Shown one piece after another: positions 1 to 39,977 of a DNA stretch of 64,000 nucleotides (position 1 is its first letter; every line of letters starts with the position of its first letter). The stretch is from Pseudoxanthomonas sp. YR558. Lineage in GTDB: Bacteria; Pseudomonadota; Gammaproteobacteria; Xanthomonadales; Xanthomonadaceae. The stretch is taken from NCBI RefSeq assembly GCF_900116385.1, contig NZ_FPCI01000002.1, positions 124,001 through 188,000 on the forward strand. Direction: 5' to 3'. The notes beneath the pieces were generated by a model. The model saw nothing but the letters and a program-made list of their open reading frames with translations, was not told the DNA's origin and made no database searches. Made by a program: the position numbers and the translations under genes.

Positions 1-980
1 GCGGTGTTGAGCAGGGAACGCGTGGCGTTCGCCTCCTCGCGGCGGCGGATCACGTTGGCTTGTGCCGTCTTCTCCGCCTGCACCACCCCGTTGAGGATCT
101 CCTTCATCTCGCCCGGCAGGATCACGTCCTTCACGCCCACGCCCAGCACCTCGACGCCGAGCCCGGCCATCTGGCCGCGCACGTAGGCGAAGATGTCGGC
201 GTCCAGCGAGGCCTTGTCGCCCAGCAGCTCGTCCAGCGTCTTGGCGGAGACCGCCTTGCGTAGGCCGTACTGCAGCTCGCGGTAGACGAAGTCGCCGACC
301 TTCGCGACCTTGGTGCGCGCTGCCACCACGTCGGTGACGCGGGTGCTGGCGGCCAGGTTCACGCGCAGGCTGACCTTGTCGCGGGTCAGGAGCTCCTGGC
401 CCGAGACCTCGATCGCCTGCACGCGCAGGTCGACGATGTCCACGACCACGTTCTTCTGGAAATTCCAGAAGGCGTAGCTGCCCGGGGCGAGCGTGCGATC
501 GAGCTTGCCGTCGATGAACACCAGGCCGGCGAACTCCGCCGGCACATCAGCCACCACGGCCAGCTTCGACAACGCGCCCAGCTGGCGCAGGCGTCGCGCG
601 ACGGCGACGTCCACGTCCGGCGTGGCGAGCGCCACCGCCTGCACTTCGACCTTCACCAGGCCGATCCAGTACAGACGCCGCGTGCCGGGCGGCAGCACGT
701 CTTCCAGCTTGCCGTTCTTCAGCACCAGGCCCACCTCGTCCACGCCGATGTCGGCGAGGACGAAGGTGTCGCCCAAACGCTCGCCGAGGCGCGCGATCAG
801 CGCGTCGACGTCGTTGCCGGCGTATTCCGGCGCTGCGATGTTGAAGGTGCGCACCTCGATCCGACCTATCGGGTCGAACCAGCGGTACACGCCGGGCGCG
901 AGCAGCTGCTCGAACCGACGGTTGCGATACACCAGGCCGCGCTCGCCGTCACCGATCACGACCCTCTTGGTCCAGAACAT
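1..980 (-). CDS. slipin (SPFH/band 7) family protein, C-terminus cut by window edge
   Basis: The minus strand is open from an ATG at 980 to base 1 and begins MFWTKRVVIGDGERGLVYRN. An AAGGAG ribosome site lies 9 bases before the ATG. The first 120 or so residues form a repeat-like N-terminal part. The SPFH/band 7 domain follows (SGQELLTRDKVSLRVNLAAS, then DVILPGEMKEILNGVVQAEK, then a RRREEANATRSLLN heptad-like helix), typical of slipins, which are membrane-associated scaffolds. About 326 residues are visible; the stop lies outside. In many bacteria this kind of slipin sits beside the RNA ligase gene rtcB (family knowledge from memory), which cannot be seen here because the downstream side is cut off. 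The two tRNA-like sequences upstream make that link worth testing. Confidence 0.85.
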   Translation of the reverse strand, partial: MFWTKRVVIGDGERGLVYRNRRFEQLLAPGVYRWFDPIGRIEVRTFNIAAPEYAGNDVDALIARLGERLGDTFVLADIGVDEVGLVLKNGKLEDVLPPGTRRLYWIGLVKVEVQAVALATPDVDVAVARRLRQLGALSKLAVVADVPAEFAGLVFIDGKLDRTLAPGSYAFWNFQKNVVVDIVDLRVQAIEVSGQELLTRDKVSLRVNLAASTRVTDVVAARTKVAKVGDFVYRELQYGLRKAVSAKTLDELLGDKASLDADIFAYVRGQMAGLGVEVLGVGVKDVILPGEMKEILNGVVQAEKTAQANVIRRREEANATRSLLNT

Positions 981-1317
981 GGCGTTGTTCTCCTTGTTGG
1001 CTCTGGTGGTTCGATCCGGATTCAAAGGATCGCCGCAGTGGATCGAATCCCGCGACGAAGGGTGCCCATCGCGATTCGCGATCGGCGGAAGAAGGTGGAA
1101 ACGCCCCTGGACGGCGGCGATGCGGGCGATCGGCGCTGTCGGCGGAAGCATCGCAACGAGGGCGCGGTCCGTGGACCGCATCGAACGCTGCACGCTTCCG
1201 CGTCGAGGGCGCGGTGCCGGCTCCGTCCCCGCTGCGTGCGTCGCCAGACCGCAATCCATCGCGGAGGGACGACACGCCGCACGGGGCGTTTCCTGGGCGG
1301 GACGTGCGTCCCTGATT
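981..1317 (-). other. long leader between tRNA-like sequences and slipin gene, no gene seen
   Basis: About 340 bases on the slipin strand contain no convincing reading frame. I see small hairpins only, for example GGGACG-CA-CGTCCC near 1300-1314. The slipin ribosome site is at the downstream end. The stretch could be a long 5' leader if the tRNA-like RNAs and slipin are co-transcribed, or it could hold the slipin promoter. I could not pick out a good promoter. Confidence 0.4.
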
Positions 1318-1334
1318 CCAGATTTACAGTCTGG
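1318..1334 (-). ncRNA. isolated anticodon-type stem-loop (Tyr GTA-like)
   Basis: On the minus strand, CCAGA-CTGTAAA-TCTGG forms a perfect 5-bp stem with a 7-base loop. The loop reads C-T-GTA-A-A, exactly like a tRNA-Tyr anticodon loop with T33 and purines at 37 and 38. No D arm, T arm or acceptor surrounds it. Its first three bases are the CCA end of the neighbouring tRNA-like sequence. It may be a tRNA fragment, a mimic or a chance hairpin. Confidence 0.35.
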
Positions 1335-1407
1335 TGTTGGAGCGGGAGTCGAACCCGCGACCGTCGGATTAATAGTCCGATGCTCTACCCATCTGAGCTA
1401 TCCAGTG
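1332..1407 (-). tRNA. tRNA-like sequence, Asn-type body with anticodon ATT, poor acceptor stem
   Basis: The 76-base element has a good D arm (GCTC/GAGC), a perfect anticodon arm TCGGA-CTATTAA-TCCGA, a 5-base variable loop, a perfect T arm GCGGG-TTCGACT-CCCGC and an encoded CCA. The body resembles tRNA-Asn, but the anticodon is ATT rather than the usual GTT. The acceptor is abnormal: only four pairs next to the D arm form, the outer three positions mismatch, and the 3' strand is one base short. It abuts the upstream tRNA-like element, sharing bases with its CCA. It may be a pseudogene or a specialised tRNA-like RNA rather than a translating tRNA. I am sure of the tRNA resemblance, not of function. 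Confidence 0.55.
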
Positions 1408-1475
1408 GTGGACGAACCGGATTCGAACCGGTGGCCAACGGCATGCGCCGCTGCTCTGCCTCTGAGCTTCCGTCC
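1406..1475 (-). tRNA. tRNA-like sequence with abnormal anticodon arm
   Basis: The element shows a 6-bp acceptor stem (GGACGG pairing with TCGTCC), a D arm GCTC..GAGC, a perfect T arm ACCGG-TTCGAAT-CCGGT, a discriminator A and an encoded CCA. The anticodon region does not make the normal 5-bp stem with 7-base loop. Instead it folds as CAGCGGC-GCAT-GCCGTTG, seven pairs (one G-T) with a 4-base loop and no T33, so no anticodon can be assigned. Like its neighbour it has 10 instead of 11 bases after the T stem. It could be a decayed tRNA, but the intact T arm, acceptor and CCA argue for a maintained tRNA-like RNA. Confidence 0.5.
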
Positions 1476-1815
1476 GCTCGAGGAACACCGTCTCCCACGC
1501 TTCGGCATACGCCACGGCAGCGCCGCGCGCACCGGACGGGACGCTAGCCCGTACCGCTGTAGCGTGTTCGATCGATGTTCCCCATTGCCGGCTGTCGCCA
1601 ACCGGCAATCCGTTCGGGCGCGACGCGCCCTTGTGGGTGTTCTCTCCACGTGCAGCCCGCGTCGGGGCATCACGACGCAGCGCACATGCGCCAGTCGCAG
1701 CCGCGCCCCTGCATCGGGGCGCGCACGCGCGCTACCCGGATGCCCCAGGGCGGAAAGGAACTTCCGTGGTGGAAAGAAACGAACCTCGATGCATGCGCAT
1801 CCTCCGCGAACGCTG
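1476..1815. other. intergenic stretch, no gene recognised
   Basis: About 340 bases lie between the tRNA-like sequences and the terminator at 1816. Reading frames here are short and unlike coding sequence. I see GC-rich inverted repeats, for example around 1705-1722 (GCGCCCC..GGGGCGC), but no convincing sigma-70 or sigma-54 promoter. A promoter for the minus-strand tRNA-like RNAs should lie in this stretch. Confidence 0.4.
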
Positions 1816-4781: not shown

Positions 4782-5234
4782 ATGTCGGGTTACTCGGAGC
4801 TGAGAAAGGGCCGCTCTTCTATGGCTGGCCAGGCCTACATGGTGACTTTCACGACGGCGGATCGCCGCCCGCTCTTCCTCCATCCGGAGCGCGCCATGGA
4901 TGCCTGCCGCGCGATGACCTGCCCGCGGCTGTGGTATCGCTCAAGGCTGTTGTGCTGGGTGCTGATGCCGGACCATTGGCATGGCGTGATCGAACTGGGT
5001 GCGCTGGACAGCCTGTCAACGACGGTGCAGCGATTGAAAACCAACAGTAGCCGGATCATCCGCCTGCATCACCCCGGGTCGGGCATCGTGTGGGAGAGGG
5101 GATTCCACGACCACGCACTACGCAGCGAGCGCTCGATCCTTGCTGCGGGACGCTACCTCGTGGCCAACCCCATGCGCGCTGGACTGGCGCGAAGTGTCTC
5201 CGAGTATGCGTGGTGGGATGCGGTCTGGCTTTGA
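4782..5234 (+). mobile_element. REP-associated tyrosine transposase (RAYT), 150 aa
   Basis: This Y1/HUH transposase has the HUH motif as LMPDHWHGVIEL (His65, His67). The likely catalytic tyrosine is Tyr125 in GRYLVANPMRAGLA, the RAYT signature (Y..NP.RA). A strong AGGAGGTG ribosome site precedes ATG 4782. The gene looks intact. RAYTs are single-copy, domesticated relatives of IS200/IS605 transposases and are thought to move or process REP sequences. Here it is bracketed by two REPs in inverted orientation (4663 and 5263), the classical RAYT arrangement. Which cellular role it plays is unknown. Confidence 0.92.
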
Positions 5235-6346: not shown

Positions 6347-6376
6347 GGGGGGAATCCTGTTACCGGGCGCGGAATT

Positions 6377-7075
6377 CTACCGTGCGCCGGGAAGCGGGAT
6401 CGCGTCGGTCGAGGGCGGCGCGCTGGCGGGACGTCGCCGCCCCACAAGGCGGCGCACCGTTTCGCACAGCAACAGCGGGACGATCCAGCTGCACCAGAGC
6501 AGGGTCGCGATCAGGATCGGCGACGGCACGAGTCCGCCGGCAATGGCGAGGGGCAGCGACAGGCGGAAGACGATCGGCGCCAGCGTCACCGCGTAGTTGC
6601 GGACCATCCAGCGGCGGTGCCGGTCCACGAGGCCGTGGCGGATGGCGATCAGGCCGGTCAGTCCCGTGGTCAGCCAGGCCAGGGCGGTCGCGGAGAACGC
6701 GAGACGGATGGAGAACGGAGCCGGCGAGGTGGCGATCAGACCGATGGCGCCGGTCGCGGCGACCAGCATGCCGGCCAGATAGAGGCGGCCGGTGACGCGA
6801 TGCAGGCGCAGACGGCGCTGGCGCCACTGGGTCAGGAACTGCACCGGTCCGAGCAACACCGTGGTGAGACCGCCGGCCAGGTGCATCCACAGCCAGCCCC
6901 GCCGCGTCATGAACATGCCATAGGCGGCCGAATCGAGATGCCGGTACTTGCCATAGGCGGCGACCAGGAACTCGATGCTGGCAAGCCCGAGCAATAGCCA
7001 CAGCACGGCCCAGGCCAGGCGCACGGCAAGCCGCGAGCGGGGCGATGCAGGGGTGCCTGGAGCGATCGCTGTCAT
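6377..7075 (-). CDS. DUF2306-type multi-pass membrane protein
   Basis: The protein has 232 residues and about six hydrophobic helices. The start is chosen at the ATG giving MTAIAPGTPASPRSRLAVRLAW, because the open frame upstream runs over the divergent transporter gene. Segments such as GGLTTVLLGPVQFLTQWRQRRLRLHRVTGRLYLAGML and RRWMVRNYAVTLAPIVFR are typical of DUF2306 (predicted heme-binding-like or redox membrane proteins of unknown role). It ends 30 bases from yajQ, so it may be co-transcribed with yajQ and DUF1415. Confidence 0.75.
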   Translation of the reverse strand: MTAIAPGTPASPRSRLAVRLAWAVLWLLLGLASIEFLVAAYGKYRHLDSAAYGMFMTRRGWLWMHLAGGLTTVLLGPVQFLTQWRQRRLRLHRVTGRLYLAGMLVAATGAIGLIATSPAPFSIRLAFSATALAWLTTGLTGLIAIRHGLVDRHRRWMVRNYAVTLAPIVFRLSLPLAIAGGLVPSPILIATLLWCSWIVPLLLCETVRRLVGRRRPASAPPSTDAIPLPGAR

Positions 7076-7153
7076 GGGCCTGCCTGCATGGATGGACGCG
7101 CGCAGGGTAGCGCACGCGCGGCGGAACGTGGCCAAGGAAGGCGATAATGACGC

Positions 7154-8038
7154 ATGACCACCGCCCGTTCCTCGCTTACGTCCGCCGTCCTGCTGATGCT
7201 CGCCGCGGTGCTGCTGTTCGCGCTGATGGATGCCGGTCTGAAGCTGCTCTCTGCGCAGTACCCGCCGCTGCAGGTCGCGGCGTTGCGCGGGCTGTCGTCG
7301 CTGCCGCTGGTGGCGATCTGGGTGCTGGCGACCGTGCCGGCCGCTTCGCTGTTGCGTGTGCACTGGCCGCTGCACTTGCTGCGCGGCGTGCTGGGCATCG
7401 CGATGATGGCCGGGTTCGTGTACGGCTTGCGCACCATGCCCTTGTCCACGGCCTATGCGATCACCTTCGTGGCGCCGCTGCTGGTCACCGCGATGGCGGG
7501 GCCGCTGTTGAAGGAGCGGGTGGGGGCGGGGCGCTGGATCGCGATCGTCATCGGTCTGGTCGGCGTGCTGGTGATCCTGCGGCCGACCGGCGAAGGCATG
7601 CTGACCGCCGGCGGATTGGCCATTCTCGTCGCGGCCATCTGCTATGCGCTGGGCGCGGTCACCGTGCGCATGCTCGCGCAACGCGACAGCACGCAGGCGC
7701 TGGTGTTCTGGTTCGTCGTGCTGCTTTCGCTCGGGGCGTCGTTGCTGGCGCTGCCCGCATGGAAGCCGCTGCAGGCCTCGCACGGCTGGATCATCGCCGG
7801 GGTGGGCGTGTCCGGTTCGCTGGCGCAGGTCGCGCTGACCGAAGCTTTCCGCCGCGGCGAGGCGTCGTTGATCGCGCCGCTCGAATACACCGCGCTGATC
7901 TGGGGCGTGATCCTGGATGTCACGCTGTGGTCGGTGCTACCCGATGGCGTGACCTGGATCGGCGCCGGCATCATCGTCGCCAGCGGCTTGTATCTGCTGC
8001 GCCGGGAGAAGGTGCACGTGGAAACCGAGCATCCCTGA
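7154..8038 (+). CDS. EamA/DMT family transporter
   Basis: This 294-residue protein has ten predicted membrane helices in two EamA repeats, the usual size for a drug/metabolite transporter superfamily exporter. Motifs include PLSTAYAITFVAPLLVTAMAGPLLKERVGAGRW in the first repeat and GEASLIAPLEYTALIWGVILD in the second. Such proteins usually export amino acids or small metabolites; the substrate cannot be read from sequence. It is divergent from the DUF2306 gene, with 78 bases between them. Confidence 0.88.
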   Translation: MTTARSSLTSAVLLMLAAVLLFALMDAGLKLLSAQYPPLQVAALRGLSSLPLVAIWVLATVPAASLLRVHWPLHLLRGVLGIAMMAGFVYGLRTMPLSTAYAITFVAPLLVTAMAGPLLKERVGAGRWIAIVIGLVGVLVILRPTGEGMLTAGGLAILVAAICYALGAVTVRMLAQRDSTQALVFWFVVLLSLGASLLALPAWKPLQASHGWIIAGVGVSGSLAQVALTEAFRRGEASLIAPLEYTALIWGVILDVTLWSVLPDGVTWIGAGIIVASGLYLLRREKVHVETEHP

Positions 8039-8068
8039 TGCCGTGTGTTTTTCGGGCATGATGCGGCC

Positions 8069-8626
8069 ATGCCCATCGTGCTCGCCCTGCTCATCCTGTT
8101 CCTGTTGCTCGCACTGTGGGTGGTGGCCCTGCCGCTGACCCTGTGGCAGCGCTATCGCTATGGGCGTGCACGCCGGATGGCGCGCGACTGGTTGCTGGCG
8201 CTCAACGCGTGGAGTCTGTTGATATCAGTGGCGATCTTCATCGCGGTCAGTGCGGTGGGTTTGTTCTGGTGGCCGGACAGCTTGCGCGGCGCCGGGTTTG
8301 GGCTGGCGATCGGCGCGCTGCTGGGTCTGCTCGGCGTCTGGCTCACCCGCTGGGATGTCGCGCCGCAAGGCGTGTTCTACCAACCCAATGCGTGGCTGTC
8401 CCTGCTATTGGTGGCGATCGTGGCGGGGCGCATCGTGCTCGGGTTTGTGCAGATGTGGCAGTACTGGCAGGCCGGCGAGATCGCCCCGACGCATGCGCTG
8501 CTGAGCGGCCATGGCAGTCTGCTTGCCGTGGCCGGCGTGCTGCTGGGCCACTATCTGGTCTACGCGTGGGGCGTGAAGTGGCGCGTGGCGCGCCTGCGCC
8601 GCCTGCAGGGGCGCGGTGGCCGCTGA
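8069..8626 (+). CDS. uncharacterised five- to six-helix membrane protein
   Basis: The start is taken at ATG 8069, giving 185 residues beginning MPIVLALLILFLLLALWVVA. Hydrophobic segments lie near residues 1-25, 48-68, 75-95, 110-130 and 145-165. There is an arginine-rich cytoplasmic tail (RVARLRRLQGRGGR). I do not recognise the family. It follows the EamA gene by 30 bases and may be co-transcribed. Confidence 0.65.
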   Translation: MPIVLALLILFLLLALWVVALPLTLWQRYRYGRARRMARDWLLALNAWSLLISVAIFIAVSAVGLFWWPDSLRGAGFGLAIGALLGLLGVWLTRWDVAPQGVFYQPNAWLSLLLVAIVAGRIVLGFVQMWQYWQAGEIAPTHALLSGHGSLLAVAGVLLGHYLVYAWGVKWRVARLRRLQGRGGR

Positions 8627-10054: not shown

Positions 10055-11089
10055 ATGCCCCCTGCCAAACGCAAGCGCCGTACCGGCACCGCCACGACGG
10101 CGCTGCCGTCGCCCGGCGACCACCTGACCATGGCGGACCTGGCGAAGGTGGCTGGCGTATCGGCGATCACCGTCTCGCGCGCGCTCCGCGACAGCCCGCT
10201 GGTGAACGCGGAAACGCGCGCCCGCGTGCGCGAGGTCGCGCAACAGTACGGCTATTCGTTCAATGTCAGCGCGCGCAACCTCAAGCTCCGCCGCAGCATG
10301 ACGGTCGCGGTGGTGGTGGAAATGAAGCCTACCGTCGAACGGCAGATGTCCGGTCCGTATCCGCTTGACCTGCTGGGCGGCATCACCCAGGAACTGACCT
10401 CCACCGGTTACAGCGTGCTGCTGACCTCGCTGCAGGGCGGTTCGCTGCCGAACGTGCAGGCCGCGGACGGCGTGATCCTGCTCGGCCAGGGCGCGCACGA
10501 GGACGCGATGCACGAAGTGCAGCGCTGGGGCCGGCCGATGGTGGTGTGGGGTGCGGTCAGCCGGCACGAATCGCAGGTCGTGGTCGGCAGCGACAATCGC
10601 CGCGGCGGTGCATTGGCGGCGGAGCGTTTCATCGCGCTCGGTCGCAGTCGCCCCGCGTTCCTCGGCGATCCGGCCCACGGCGAGTTCGCCGAACGCCTCG
10701 AAGGTTTCAGCGCCGCGTTGGCGCGCCATGGCATCGCGCCGATCGCGCCGACCGTCACCAGTTTCACCGTCGGCGCGGGCGCGGATGCGGTACACGCACT
10801 GCTGCAGGCACATCCCCAAGTGGACGCGCTGTTCGCCGCCAGCGATCTGTTGGCCATCGGCGCGATCCGCGCCTTGATCGAGCGTGGGCGGCGGGTACCC
10901 GAGGACGTCTCGGTGATCGGCTATGACGACTCCCCGCTGGGCGCGACCTACGTGCCGCCGCTGACCTCGGTGCACCAGAACTTCATCGATGCCGGCGTGC
11001 TGCTGGCCCGCAAGGTGCGCGCCCTGATCGAGGGCGACGAGGCGGTGTCCGAGACGCTGCCGACCCATCTGGTCGTCCGCACGACCTGA
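10055..11089 (+). CDS. LacI-family transcriptional regulator of the GH65 sugar locus
   Basis: The 344-residue protein has a basic N-terminal tail and the LacI helix-turn-helix MADLAKVAGVSAITVSRALRDSP at about residues 26-48. The hinge region follows, then a periplasmic-binding-protein-like effector domain with DGVILLGQ, FLGDPAHGEFAERLEGF and SVIGYDDSPLGATYVPPLTSVHQN. These regulators bind sugars or sugar phosphates. It sits immediately upstream of, and in line with, the GH65-phosphorylase, TonB receptor and MFS genes. The tandem repeat at 11240-11267 contains the ATCGAT centre often seen in LacI-type operators, so this protein is the likely repressor (inference). A GTG nine bases upstream is an alternative start. 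Confidence 0.9.
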   Translation: MPPAKRKRRTGTATTALPSPGDHLTMADLAKVAGVSAITVSRALRDSPLVNAETRARVREVAQQYGYSFNVSARNLKLRRSMTVAVVVEMKPTVERQMSGPYPLDLLGGITQELTSTGYSVLLTSLQGGSLPNVQAADGVILLGQGAHEDAMHEVQRWGRPMVVWGAVSRHESQVVVGSDNRRGGALAAERFIALGRSRPAFLGDPAHGEFAERLEGFSAALARHGIAPIAPTVTSFTVGAGADAVHALLQAHPQVDALFAASDLLAIGAIRALIERGRRVPEDVSVIGYDDSPLGATYVPPLTSVHQNFIDAGVLLARKVRALIEGDEAVSETLPTHLVVRTT

Positions 11090-11239
11090 GCGCATTGTGC
11101 TGCTGCATCGCAGCGGCTACCCGGTGGACATCCGGGCGCGTCGATTCGCGTTTAAACTCACCTAAATCATTGAATAAAAAGGCTTCTGTCTGCGTCCCTG
11201 CCTCGGCGTTAGCAGTACCCCGGGCTTTTGGAGGCTTCT

Positions 11240-11267
11240 TTGACATCGATAACTTGACATCGATAAC
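11240..11267 (+). promoter_or_regulatory. tandem 14-bp direct repeat, probable LacI-type operator
   Basis: TTGACATCGATAAC occurs twice back to back (11240-11253 and 11254-11267), about 60 bases before the GH65 gene. Each copy has a palindromic ATCGAT core and each starts with a consensus -35 hexamer TTGACA. Repressor binding here would cover the promoter. Confidence 0.65.
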
Positions 11268-11329
11268 AACGACTTCTAGCGTGCCCCCGCCCGTGGCCCC
11301 GCCACGGCCGGTAACAGGTGAGCACGAGG

Positions 11330-14300
11330 ATGTCGGTGGAACAGAAGCTGGCGCACACATCGGGTCAGGGCACGGCGGCCGAAAGCCGGTCCGATCCCTG
11401 GCGGCTCACCCAACGGGCGTTCGACGCCGAACGCGCGGCGCGCGATGAAACCCTGTTCGCCCTCGCCAACGGCACGCTGGGTGTGCGCGGTGCGCTGGAG
11501 GAAGACGACAGCCCCAGTGATGGCACGTTCCTGTCGAGCGTGTTCGAGCAGAACCCCATCCACTACCACGAGCGTTTCCCCGGCTTCACCCGCAGCACCG
11601 ACACGCGGGTGCCGGTCGCCGAGGGCAAGCACCTCCGGCTGCAACTCGGCGACATGCCGCTGCGCCTGCAGGAAGCGGAGTGGCTCGACTTCGAGCGCAC
11701 GCTGGATCTTGCCGCCGGGGCGCTCGACCGCCGCCTGCGCCTGAAAACCGCGCAGGGGCATACGCTCGAGATCCGCGCGCGCCGCGTGGTGCCGTTGGCC
11801 GAGCGCGCATTGCTCGCCATCCGGTTCGAAGTGGCGTCCATCGACTATGCGGGCCCACTGACGCTGTGTTCATCGATCGAGACCGGACGGCAGGCCGTCG
11901 AACAGGGCGATGATCCCCGCATCGGCGTGCACGGCGGCAAAGAGCTGCACGTCGCGGACGAGCATGCCGATGCCGAAGGCGCCCGGCTGACGCAGCGCAC
12001 CCATCACAGCGGCGTCGCCCTAGTGTGCGCACAGCAGCATCGGCTGTCGCCGGGCTTGGCGTTCACCGTGGCGCAGGCGGGCGATGGCCGCGTGGAGCAG
12101 CGCTTCGGCGCGACGCTGACGCCAGGCGCGTCCGTGGTGATCGAGAAGTACGTCGCTTACGACGATGGCAATGGCCAGGCGCAGGACAGCGTGGACGCCG
12201 TGCTGGCGCGCGCGTCGCGCGACGGTTTCGACAGCATCGCGGCCGCGCAGGCCGACGCCCTGCATGCGTTCTGGCAGCGTGCCGGCTTGTCGGTAGAGGG
12301 CGATGCCGCGGCGGAACTCGCGCTGCGCTTCAACCTGTTCCACCTGCTGCAGTCGGCCGGACGCGACGGCATCAACGGCACGGCCGCCAAGGGCATCACG
12401 GGCGAAGGCTATGAAGGCCACTGCTTCTGGGATACCGAAGCTTTCGTGTTGCCGGTCATGGCGTTCACCGCGCCGGACGTGGCGCGCGCGATGCTGATGT
12501 ACCGCTTCCGCACGCTGGACGGCGCACGCGACACCGCCCGCGCGATGAATCATTCCCGCGGTGCGCTGTACCCCTGGCGCACCATCGCCGGCCGCGAATG
12601 TTCCGCGCACTATCCCAGCGGCTCGGCGGCGTACCACATCAATGCCGCCATCGCCTACGGGATCGGGCTTTATCTCGACGCCAGCGATGATCTCGACTTC
12701 CTCAGCGAGGCTGGCGCCGAGATTCTTTTCGAGACCGCGCGCATCTGGCCGCAGGCCGGCCATTTCAATCCGCGGCTCGACGGTGCGTTCTGCATCCACG
12801 AGGTCACGGGACCTGACGAATACACCACGCTGGTCAACAACAACTGGTACACCAACCGCATGGCGCAGCGGCACCTGCAGCGCGCCGTCGCGGCCTGGGC
12901 CCGCCTGTCGGCGGATCGCCCCGACGCACTGCGCGCCCTCGCCAGTCGCATCGGGCTCGAGGCCGATGAAGTCGCGCTCTGGCAGCGCGCCGCCGACGCG
13001 ATGCACTTGCCGGTGGACGAAGCGCTCGGGATCCATCCGCAGGACGACGATTTCCTCGCCAAGCCGCGTTGGCCGTTTCCCAAGCGCGAAGGGCCGCATC
13101 GCCCGCTGTTGCTCGATTACCACCCGCTCACCCTGTATCGCCACCAGGTCTGCAAGCAGGCCGACGTGGTGATGGCGATGGTGCTGGCTGGCGATGGCGT
13201 CGACCTGGGCGCGAAGCGCCGCGACTTCGATTACTACGACGCCGTCACCACCCACGACTCCACGTTGTCGGCGCCGGTCTACGGCATCCTGGCCAGCGAA
13301 GTCGGCCAAGAAGGCAAGGCCTGGGACTACTTCGACGCCAGCCTGCGCGTGGACCTGGACGACCTGCACGGCAACACCGACCACGGCGTGCACATGGCGG
13401 CGATGGCCGGCAGCTGGTTGGGGCTGGTGCAGGGTTTCGGCGGCTTGCGCATCGTCGCGGGCCGGCTGCAGTTCGCCCCCACCTTGCCGCAGGCCTGGAA
13501 GGGTTACGGCTTCAACCTCCGCTGGCGCGGCTGCGCGCTGCGCGTGGATGTGGACGCGCGCGGTGCCCGCTATCGCCTCGATGAAGGCGACGCGTTGGCG
13601 TTCGGCCACGCCGGCAGCGAAGTGATACTGAAGGCTGGGCGCGAAGTCGCGCTGCCGCTCGCCATGCCATCGCCACCGAAGCTGGCGCTGCCCCGCGCTT
13701 GCGACGCGCTGATCTTCGATCTCGACGGCGTGCTGACCGATACCGCGCACACGCATTACCGGGCATGGAAGCGGCTGGCCGACGAGATCGGCGTGCCGTT
13801 CGACCTGCAGGTCAACGAGCGCCTGAAGGGCGTGGACCGGATGGCGTCGCTGGAGATCATCCTCGAGCGCGCCACGCGAAGCTATTCCAACGACGAGAAG
13901 CGCGCGCTGGCCGATACGAAGAACGGCTACTACGTGCAGGAGATCGCGCACGTCGGTCCGCAGGATCTGTTCGACGGCGTGAGCGAGGCGCTGGATGCGG
14001 CGCGCGCGGCGGGTCTGAAGCTCGGCCTGGCGTCGGCGAGCCGTAATGCGCCGACGCTGCTGCAGAAGCTGGGCATCGCGGACCGCTTCGACTACATCGC
14101 CGATGCCGGACGCATCGTTCGCGCCAAGCCCGATCCGGCCATCTTCCTCGACGTCGCCGCCGCTCTAGGTGTGCCGGCGCACCGCTGTATTGGCGTGGAA
14201 GACGCCGCGGCCGGCATCGAAGCCATCCATGCGGCGGGCATGGCCGCGATCGGCATCGGCGACGCGCGCGCGTTGCGCCATGCCGACGCTGTCATCCCGC

Positions 14301-38765: not shown

Positions 38766-39977
38766 CTATAGCCTAACCGAAGGGCTGCGACTGACGAGGT
38801 GCGGCGGGATGCGGCGGGCCAGGTACGCGGGCCACGCGGCGGCCAACTGCACGGCCAACGCCACCCAAGCGGCGATGGCCACCATCGATCCCAGCGATGG
38901 CGTACTCGCCAGCCACGCCGGCGCGATGCGCGGCAGCAGCCAGCCGCCGCAGGCCAGGCCGAGCAATGCCGCTGCGCAGGCCAGCCACAGGTATTCGAGA
39001 CGCAACCGACGCGCGAGTTGGCGGCCGGTGGCCCCGGCGGCGCGGCGCAGACTGAATTCCTGCGCATGTTCCTGCACCCACCGTTGGCCGCCGAGCATCA
39101 ACAGGCCGAGTGCGGAGACCCACCAGGCGATGCAGGCGCCCACCGACCAGCCTGCACGCAGGCGGGGCGCATGCAGCGACACGTCGCGCAATGCAGCTAT
39201 GTCGACAGGGTCGGCGGCGACGACGTCGGGATGGGCGGCCGACAGGACCGACCGAATGCGCGCTGCCATGTCGTCGGTGGGACCCGTATGGCGCACCAGG
39301 AACTGCGCATCTCCGGCACGTACCATCCGCACCGGCAGCATCATGGCCAGGTCGCGCGCATCGGGCGCACTCGCCGGTGGCGGCAGCCGCTCGATCACGC
39401 CGATGACGCGCAACTGCGCGCCCGGTGCGGTCGACAGGGTGCGGCCGAGCGGGTCGACGTCACCGTACAGGCGCGTGGCCAGCGCGGAGGAAATGACGGC
39501 CGGCCCCGGGCCTGCGTGCAGGTCGTCCTGATCACCGGCATAGTCGCGGAACTCGCCCGGCAGGAAATCGCGTCCACGCACCGTGGCGATGCCCAGCGTC
39601 TTGCTGAAGTGTTCATCGGCGAGGAACACTGACACGACGTTGCGCTCGGCGGGACGCGCCGGCGTCCACGCGTGCACGCTCCACGCGTTGTTCCCATACG
39701 GCACTTGGTTGGCCGCCGTGACGGACAGCACGCCGGGCACGCTGCGCAAGCGATGCAGCACGTCGTCCACGCCCGGATCCGACGCCGGCGTCATCTGCAT
39801 CCACGGCACTAGCATCAGACCAGTGTCGACGATGCCATCCGGCGAGGTGCGCGCGACCTGCAGGTCCGTCAGCGCTTGCCAGGCCTGCAGGCATAGCACC
39901 ACGCCGATCGCCAGTTGCACGGCGATCAACCAGGTGCCCGCATGGTGGCGCCCCAGCAGCAGGAAAGGAGGAGACAT
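38766..39977 (-). CDS. FtsX/MacB-like permease-type membrane protein
   Basis: The 403-residue protein has an N-terminal membrane helix (TWLIAVQLAIGVVLCLQAWQAL), a large periplasmic MacB-type domain (about residues 45-280; includes NQVPYGNNAWSVHAW and LGRTLSTAPGAQLRVIGVIE), then three helices with SLRRAAGATGRQLARRLRLEYLWLA, the FtsX coupling region. It resembles the two permeases upstream but is more diverged and shorter at the N-terminus. It is probably a third subunit of the same exporter, or a regulator-linked accessory. Confidence 0.8.
   Translation of the reverse strand: MSPPFLLLGRHHAGTWLIAVQLAIGVVLCLQAWQALTDLQVARTSPDGIVDTGLMLVPWMQMTPASDPGVDDVLHRLRSVPGVLSVTAANQVPYGNNAWSVHAWTPARPAERNVVSVFLADEHFSKTLGIATVRGRDFLPGEFRDYAGDQDDLHAGPGPAVISSALATRLYGDVDPLGRTLSTAPGAQLRVIGVIERLPPPASAPDARDLAMMLPVRMVRAGDAQFLVRHTGPTDDMAARIRSVLSAAHPDVVAADPVDIAALRDVSLHAPRLRAGWSVGACIAWWVSALGLLMLGGQRWVQEHAQEFSLRRAAGATGRQLARRLRLEYLWLACAAALLGLACGGWLLPRIAPAWLASTPSLGSMVAIAAWVALAVQLAAAWPAYLARRIPPHLVSRSPSVRL

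Follow-up and report, generated by a model that had tools for sequence, protein, structure and literature searches.

A tandem tRNA-like RNA conserved upstream of slipin genes, usually in company with rtcB, in Xanthomonadales

Are two abutting and individually defective tRNA-like sequences in front of a slipin gene the remains of dead tRNAs, or are they parts of a specialised RNA belonging to an RNA-repair cluster? We examined this question in a 64,000-nucleotide stretch of Pseudoxanthomonas sp. YR558 (contig NZ_FPCI01000002.1, positions 124001-188000; hereafter the window). On its minus strand, at 1318-1475, two abutting cloverleaves and an anticodon-type hairpin are followed by a gene for a slipin of the SPFH/Band-7 family. 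An original prediction, made from the window's letters, had described this arrangement and proposed specialised tRNA-like RNAs of an RNA-repair operon, and the arrangement was confirmed by ARAGORN, Rfam and the gene coordinates. Comparison with relatives leaves us with high confidence that the locus encodes a structured RNA with a function, linked to slipin and in most cases to RtcB as well. RNA-repair ligases are widespread in bacteria, and little is known of their natural substrates and partners. The RNA would be a concrete molecule to test as a substrate, bait or scaffold, and could provide a reason why slipin genes accompany RtcB.

Anatomy and conservation of the RNA

The first unit (RNA1, 1410-1475) and the second (RNA2, 1338-1404), both on the minus strand, were recognised by ARAGORN, by Rfam and by covariation. 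ARAGORN placed a tRNA without an assigned anticodon at 1407-1476 and one with anticodon ATT at 1333-1407, and the Rfam tRNA model matched the two units at 54.8 and 41.6 bits (gathering score 29), which rank 42nd and 47th among the genome's 48 tRNA-family matches. The D and T arms of RNA1 and the D, anticodon and T arms of RNA2 are intact, and, as had been predicted, 10 bases follow the T stem in each. RNA1 has an acceptor of 6 base pairs (bp) and an anticodon-type stem (1438-1451, minus strand) that covaries (helix 3) and is capped by the tetraloop GCAU. RNA2 retains an acceptor remnant of 4 bp, UGGA/UCCA, and carries a 7-nucleotide (nt) 'anticodon' loop, CUAUUAA (1369-1375, minus strand). These features agree with the predicted four-base loop in one unit and the anticodon ATT and broken acceptor in the other. 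An encoded CCA had been claimed for both units and was upheld for RNA1, which is directly followed by ACCA (1406-1409); CCA at this place is common among relatives, not universal. In RNA2 the apparent 'CCA' opens the stem of hairpin 3 and is not kept in relatives. Hairpin 3 itself (CCAGA-CUGUAAA-UCUGG; 1318-1334, minus strand) is anticodon-type by loop composition and triplets, and its loop is identical to that of tRNA-Tyr in the same genome, as its description as Tyr-like had implied.

Neither unit has the combination of a 7-bp acceptor, a 7-nt loop with U33 and a CCA end that marks an ordinary tRNA. ARAGORN assigns a standard anticodon to the units of many relatives, and ordinary-looking tRNA genes occur further upstream at two distant loci (L167 and L168), as might be expected of working tRNAs with unusual decoding or of a stress-induced tRNA reserve. 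However, the acceptors have 6 and 4 pairs, RNA2 lacks a conserved CCA and does not keep U33, and RNA1 has a 4-nt loop in many relatives. We therefore regard a role in translation as very improbable.

The structure was assessed by comparison. A DNA search of 297 genomes of the family gave matches at E ≤1.1e-15 in 81 genomes; the weaker matches that were looked at were mostly short, as ordinary tRNAs would give. The 30 best DNA matches, 29 of them distinct, were aligned, and a hand-drawn structure of two cloverleaves (38 pairs) was tested on an independent MAFFT alignment. In the latter, 99.2% of cells pair and 13 of the 38 pairs show changes on both sides. Shuffles of the same alignment gave a mean of 4.8 compensated pairs, and none of 500 reached 13. 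Because the compensatory changes exceed those in shuffles, the structure is, at the level of sequence comparison, not a product of chance. A larger, model-fitted alignment showed compensatory changes in 24 of the 38 pairs, with 98.6% of cells paired; this count excludes one spurious row, with which it would be 29.

Gene order was equally well conserved. A scan of named genomes with the slipin protein provided 216 loci, and the best 80 were used for synteny counts. Nearly all are from Xanthomonadales (Pseudoxanthomonas, Luteimonas, Lysobacter, Xanthomonas, Dyella, Rhodanobacter and Frateuria), and five, which are assembled bins, carry broader labels, in one case Planctomycetota. The covariance model of the RNA (R1) matched upstream of slipin and on the same strand at 78 of the 80 loci; at the other two (L091 and L097) the contigs start 231 and 360 bases before slipin. 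Downstream of slipin, rtcB was present at 77 of the 80 and was not found at L087, L103 and L110. As a stand-alone detector R1 was rejected, as it matches all 274 genomes of the class, and ordinary tRNA pairs (Val-Asp, for example) reach 101.6 bits. When 29 fetched loci besides the window's own were examined as a control, three matches of ≤155 bases were found, all beside slipin, and the remaining 26 loci held ordinary tRNA pairs, without a slipin in the 1.5 kb examined.

Plain tRNA pseudogenes had been expected to show no rtcB-type gene nearby and no conservation of the stems in relatives. In this genome, rtcB lies at contig positions 121782-122996 on the same strand as the RNA, 1.0-2.2 kb to the left of window base 1, where it had been predicted, and the stems are kept up in relatives by compensatory changes. 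In this genome the acceptors are broken and the tRNA scores low, as would suit decaying pseudogenes, but the stems of pseudogenes should decay uncompensated. This was not observed, and the 24 compensated pairs together with the conserved synteny make decay a reading that can practically be dismissed and favour specialised tRNA-like RNAs. A phage origin was also considered and set aside: 1 of 55 candidate stretches in viral contigs encodes a distant slipin.

As judged from the alignments of relatives, the conserved RNA extends beyond the region first noted and includes a three-way junction at approximately 1497-1567 and a hairpin at 1299-1312. RNAalifold analysis of the upstream domain (1497-1567, minus strand) in 29 relatives predicted 24 pairs, 9 of them with compensatory changes, and the three-way junction bears a strongly conserved hairpin, GUGCGCGCGGC..GCCGUGGCGUAU. 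Hairpin 4 (1299-1312, minus strand) has a stem that covaries in the alignment of relatives and a tetraloop that is mostly GNRA-type (GCAA/GAAA) in relatives and GCAC in this genome. The GC-rich stretch GGAAACGCCCCGUGCGGCGU (1271-1293, minus strand), conserved in the alignment of relatives, is a possible hairpin; no local hairpin was predicted for it in the downstream structure prediction. A simple scan detected a 5-bp/7-nt hairpin soon after RNA2 at 64 of 78 loci, a few of them in another register, and at 38 loci its loop is identical to this genome's tRNA-Asp, Glu or Tyr loop. Neither the upstream nor the downstream part of the RNA matched an Rfam 15 family in the window up to an E of 5.

Distant loci, rtcR and sigma-54

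A slipin profile search of 299 genomes of the phylum identified 16 at E ≤1e-40, three of them members of the family. Regions were fetched around 13 distant slipins (L167-L179), which are 38-50% identical where measured, together with three regions picked by R1 itself (L180-L182). R1 matched upstream of slipin and on the same strand at full length in 12 of the 13 distant loci (55-113 bits) and partially at L172 (34 bits), where inspection by eye showed a single cloverleaf-like unit whose anticodon stem is long and capped. An ordinary tRNA pair in L167 reaches 69 bits, more than L168 and L169 score (55 and 61 bits), so that at these two loci position is the evidence. A gene for RtcB was present in 7 of the 13 distant regions.

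The original prediction pointed to the RNA-repair operon of Salmonella, with sigma-54 and RtcR in control. For this genome several elements of that proposal failed. No match was found in the genome to RtcR (PF06956), RtcA (PF01137) or TROVE/Rsr (PF05731), and thus control of the Salmonella type does not apply. A search of the 675 bases before the RNA gave no sigma-54 site with ≤2 mismatches, and a second scan was likewise empty there. Control of this locus by RtcR and sigma-54 was accordingly rejected. In the wider family the idea fared better, as five distant loci carry a divergently oriented rtcR. In all five, a sigma-54-like site with one mismatch lies downstream of rtcR, with the core GG/GC intact in four; it stands shortly before the RNA at four loci and before rtcB at L172.

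From strand and synteny, the RNA would be transcribed ahead of slipin and rtcB. It could be a cis-acting 5' leader of the slipin-rtcB mRNA, in which cutting or resealing of the loop would alter downstream expression and so act as a damage sensor. In the loci examined the RNA immediately precedes slipin on the same strand, and at four rtcR-linked loci a sigma-54-like site stands shortly before it; both are consistent with such a leader. Nevertheless, a spacer of approximately 357 nt separates the RNA from slipin, no switch element was recognised (no systematic search was made), and the gene order at L172 is rtcB, RNA, slipin. We consider a leader unlikely, though it is with the scaffold discussed below a serious rival of a decoy or sensor.

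Several distant loci had features of their own. At L179 (4169-4383; the same place as L138), three successive tRNA-like units rather than two lie beside rtcR and slipin. Ordinary-looking tRNA arrays are located further upstream of the RNA, slipin and rtcB at L167 (tRNAs at 6373-8541) and L168 (tRNAs at 7051-7333), as if a tRNA bank had been joined to the locus. At L168 (1336-4028), slipin is followed by genes for RlaP (PF10127, RNA repair pathway DNA polymerase beta family) and for a diverged RtcB, and the opposite end of the region encodes a closer RtcB.

The changing loop of RNA2 and possible roles of the RNA

The anticodon stem of RNA2 (helix 7) is kept by compensation, with 99.7% of cells paired. 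Its loop is 7 nt long in 71 of 78 elements, and these comprise 50 distinct sequences with 30 different middle triplets. Divergence was compared in 15 disjoint closest pairs of loci with a fourfold divergence of ≤0.16, 13 of which have loops of equal length. Over these 13 pairs, 35 of 91 sites in the RNA2 loop differ. In the same pairs, 274 of 2801 fourfold-degenerate sites of slipin (9.8%), 506 of 4628 sites of the noncoding DNA between the RNA and slipin (10.9%) and 40 of 598 sites of the RNA2 D and T arms differ. In 12 of these 13 pairs the loop diverged more than the noncoding DNA did. When placed on a slipin tree, 14 of the 15 pairs were branch-disjoint; omitting the overlapping one leaves a loop count of 30 of 84. 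Selection for change in the loop is suggested by these counts, not proven.

The loop nonetheless keeps the habits of a tRNA. Among the 50 distinct 7-mers, Y32 is present in 43, U33 in 32, A37 in 43 and A38 in 33. Measured against the 43 loops of this genome's tRNAs (including one doubtful ARAGORN call), the loops are nearer to real tRNA loops than column shuffles are (1.34 versus 1.60; 0 of 300 shuffles). That RNA2 had taken over the anticodon arms of real tRNAs by exact copying was considered and rejected, as no exact 17-nt match was found among the tRNAs of this genome.

As a whole, the locus is best explained as encoding a conserved, multi-domain noncoding RNA of a slipin-RtcB RNA-repair cluster that mimics tRNA and would work together with slipin and RtcB, and to this combined explanation we give about an even chance of being right. 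Somewhat less probable is a mechanism in which the RNA serves as a repairable decoy. The two cloverleaves would mimic the elbow and anticodon arm of a tRNA without a normal acceptor stem, slipin would bind the RNA, and the RNA2 anticodon arm would be offered as bait or docking site to enzymes that cut anticodon loops. RtcB joins 2',3'-cyclic phosphate to 5'-OH, and the RtcB of the same cluster could reseal the cut RNA and make the decoy reusable. The changing 'anticodon' may then reflect changing attackers. A fuller version, which we hold only tentatively, is an arms race in which a soluble slipin assembly displays the RNA, selection diversifies the anticodon arm so that it draws in a range of anticodon nucleases, whether from phages, from rival bacteria or among the cell's own toxins, and RtcB reseals it. 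If this were true, past attackers would have left their record in the resulting 'anticodon roulette'.

Several observations weigh against this reading. The single-sequence fold is unremarkable (z of -1.0, with a minimum-energy fold that is not the two cloverleaves); the case for the RNA rests on comparison. The loop is unchanged in one of the 13 pairs, and the loops match real tRNA loops exactly no more often than shuffles do (7 versus 4.9, P 0.19). The fourfold sites belong to GC-rich genomes and are open to codon bias, and the flank is partly structured; both yardsticks may be slower than neutral DNA, in which case the fast change of the loop could be partly plain freedom. Finally, 7 of the 16 fetched regions (L173-L178 and L182) yielded no rtcB within some 4-5 kb, and at L173-L178 slipin and the tRNA-like RNA occur without one, which argues that the RNA is tied more tightly to slipin than to RtcB.

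The other serious rival is a scaffold, for which the model is the Y RNA of Deinococcus that tethers Rsr to PNPase. The tRNA-like units would merely hold slipin and RtcB, or tRNA-handling enzymes, together, and the variable loop would simply be free. The conserved parts, namely the D and T arms, the acceptor remnant and the three-way junction, are compatible with a scaffold. The structure model of slipin shows an SPFH protein that has three additional beta repeats and lacks a convincing transmembrane stretch. It likewise suits a ribonucleoprotein; according to this model the protein is probably soluble. A free loop, however, should not keep its preferences at Y32, U33, A37 and A38, nor should it outpace fourfold sites about fourfold. 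A scaffold is in our estimate a doubtful explanation.

Known systems and neighbouring genes

Burroughs and Aravind reportedly announced in 2016 a novel tRNA-like molecule that serves as cognate RNA to the Band-7 modules of RNA-repair systems. The setting is the same at the present loci, where a noncoding tRNA-like gene adjoins a Band-7 gene within an RtcB cluster. A partial search of the literature did not find a tandem tRNA-like RNA beside slipin and rtcB.

The YrlA or bacterial Y RNA (Rfam RF02553) is part of the rsr-yrlBA-rtcBA operon of Salmonella, and shares with the RNA described here that it is a tRNA-like noncoding RNA adjoining rtcB. Identity with Y RNA, which the original prediction had cited for comparison, was not demonstrated. 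The window scored 29.8 bits with RF02553, against a gathering score of 69, a value that ordinary tandem tRNAs also give (23.8-32.1 bits in 4 of 6 control loci). Six of seven relatives of the RNA scored 25.5-39.0 bits; two of these (39.0 and 34.0) are slightly above the control range, and all are far below 69. Membership was not supported by the comparison with ordinary tandem tRNAs, and the genome also differs from the YrlA setting in that a gene for the Ro/Rsr (TROVE) partner was not found in it.

The rtcBA operon under RtcR and sigma-54 is known from E. coli, Salmonella and P. aeruginosa. This genome has its RtcB and, as far as was found, neither RtcR and RtcA nor the sigma-54 promoter. The rtc locus of P. 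aeruginosa contains an SPFH gene (PMC13086221), so that RtcB and an SPFH gene are shared with that species; relatives of the RNA linked to rtcR exist as well. PA4582 of the same operon is described as of unknown function (PMC8619066). According to PMC7790460, the Salmonella rtc operon responds to broken tRNAs and YrlA has a tRNA-like domain, for which the authors suggest a possible competitive inhibition of a nuclease. In Anabaena, TrcR represses the silent trn tRNA array, and rtcB and a gene of the slipin family rise when it is lost (PMC10272220). There the regulon consists of scattered genes and of tRNAs named by amino acid and anticodon, whereas one cluster with tRNA-like units is found here.

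Downstream of the RNA and on the same strand, the gene order in this genome is slipin, a gene for a 252-amino-acid protein, and rtcB. The slipin gene encodes 372 amino acids and occupies window positions 1-980 on the minus strand, with its start codon at 980 and its stop at contig position 123862, left of the window; the product matches Band_7 (PF01145) at 107.5 bits. In a Foldseek search with the whole slipin model, stomatin came first (E of 4.3e-15), followed by MVP (E of 2.9e-11). The eukaryotic vault of MVP and vault RNA resembles the locus in having an SPFH part and a long helix; a vault-like cage, to which the slipin fold points faintly at most, was set aside. The RtcB product matches PF01139 at 415 bits and is the sole RtcB-family match in the genome. 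The 252-amino-acid protein (11046-11804 of locus region L002) had no Pfam, NCBIfam or PADLOC match, and since its gene is present at only 10 of the 80 related loci, the distribution marks it as accessory.

Two minor features lie elsewhere in the window. An ARAGORN call of tRNA-Pro at 38833-38918 is absent from the Rfam tRNA search of the genome and is probably false. At 4782-5234 on the plus strand, an open reading frame of 150 amino acids resembles, by eye and from its motif, what we take to be a REP-associated tyrosine transposase.
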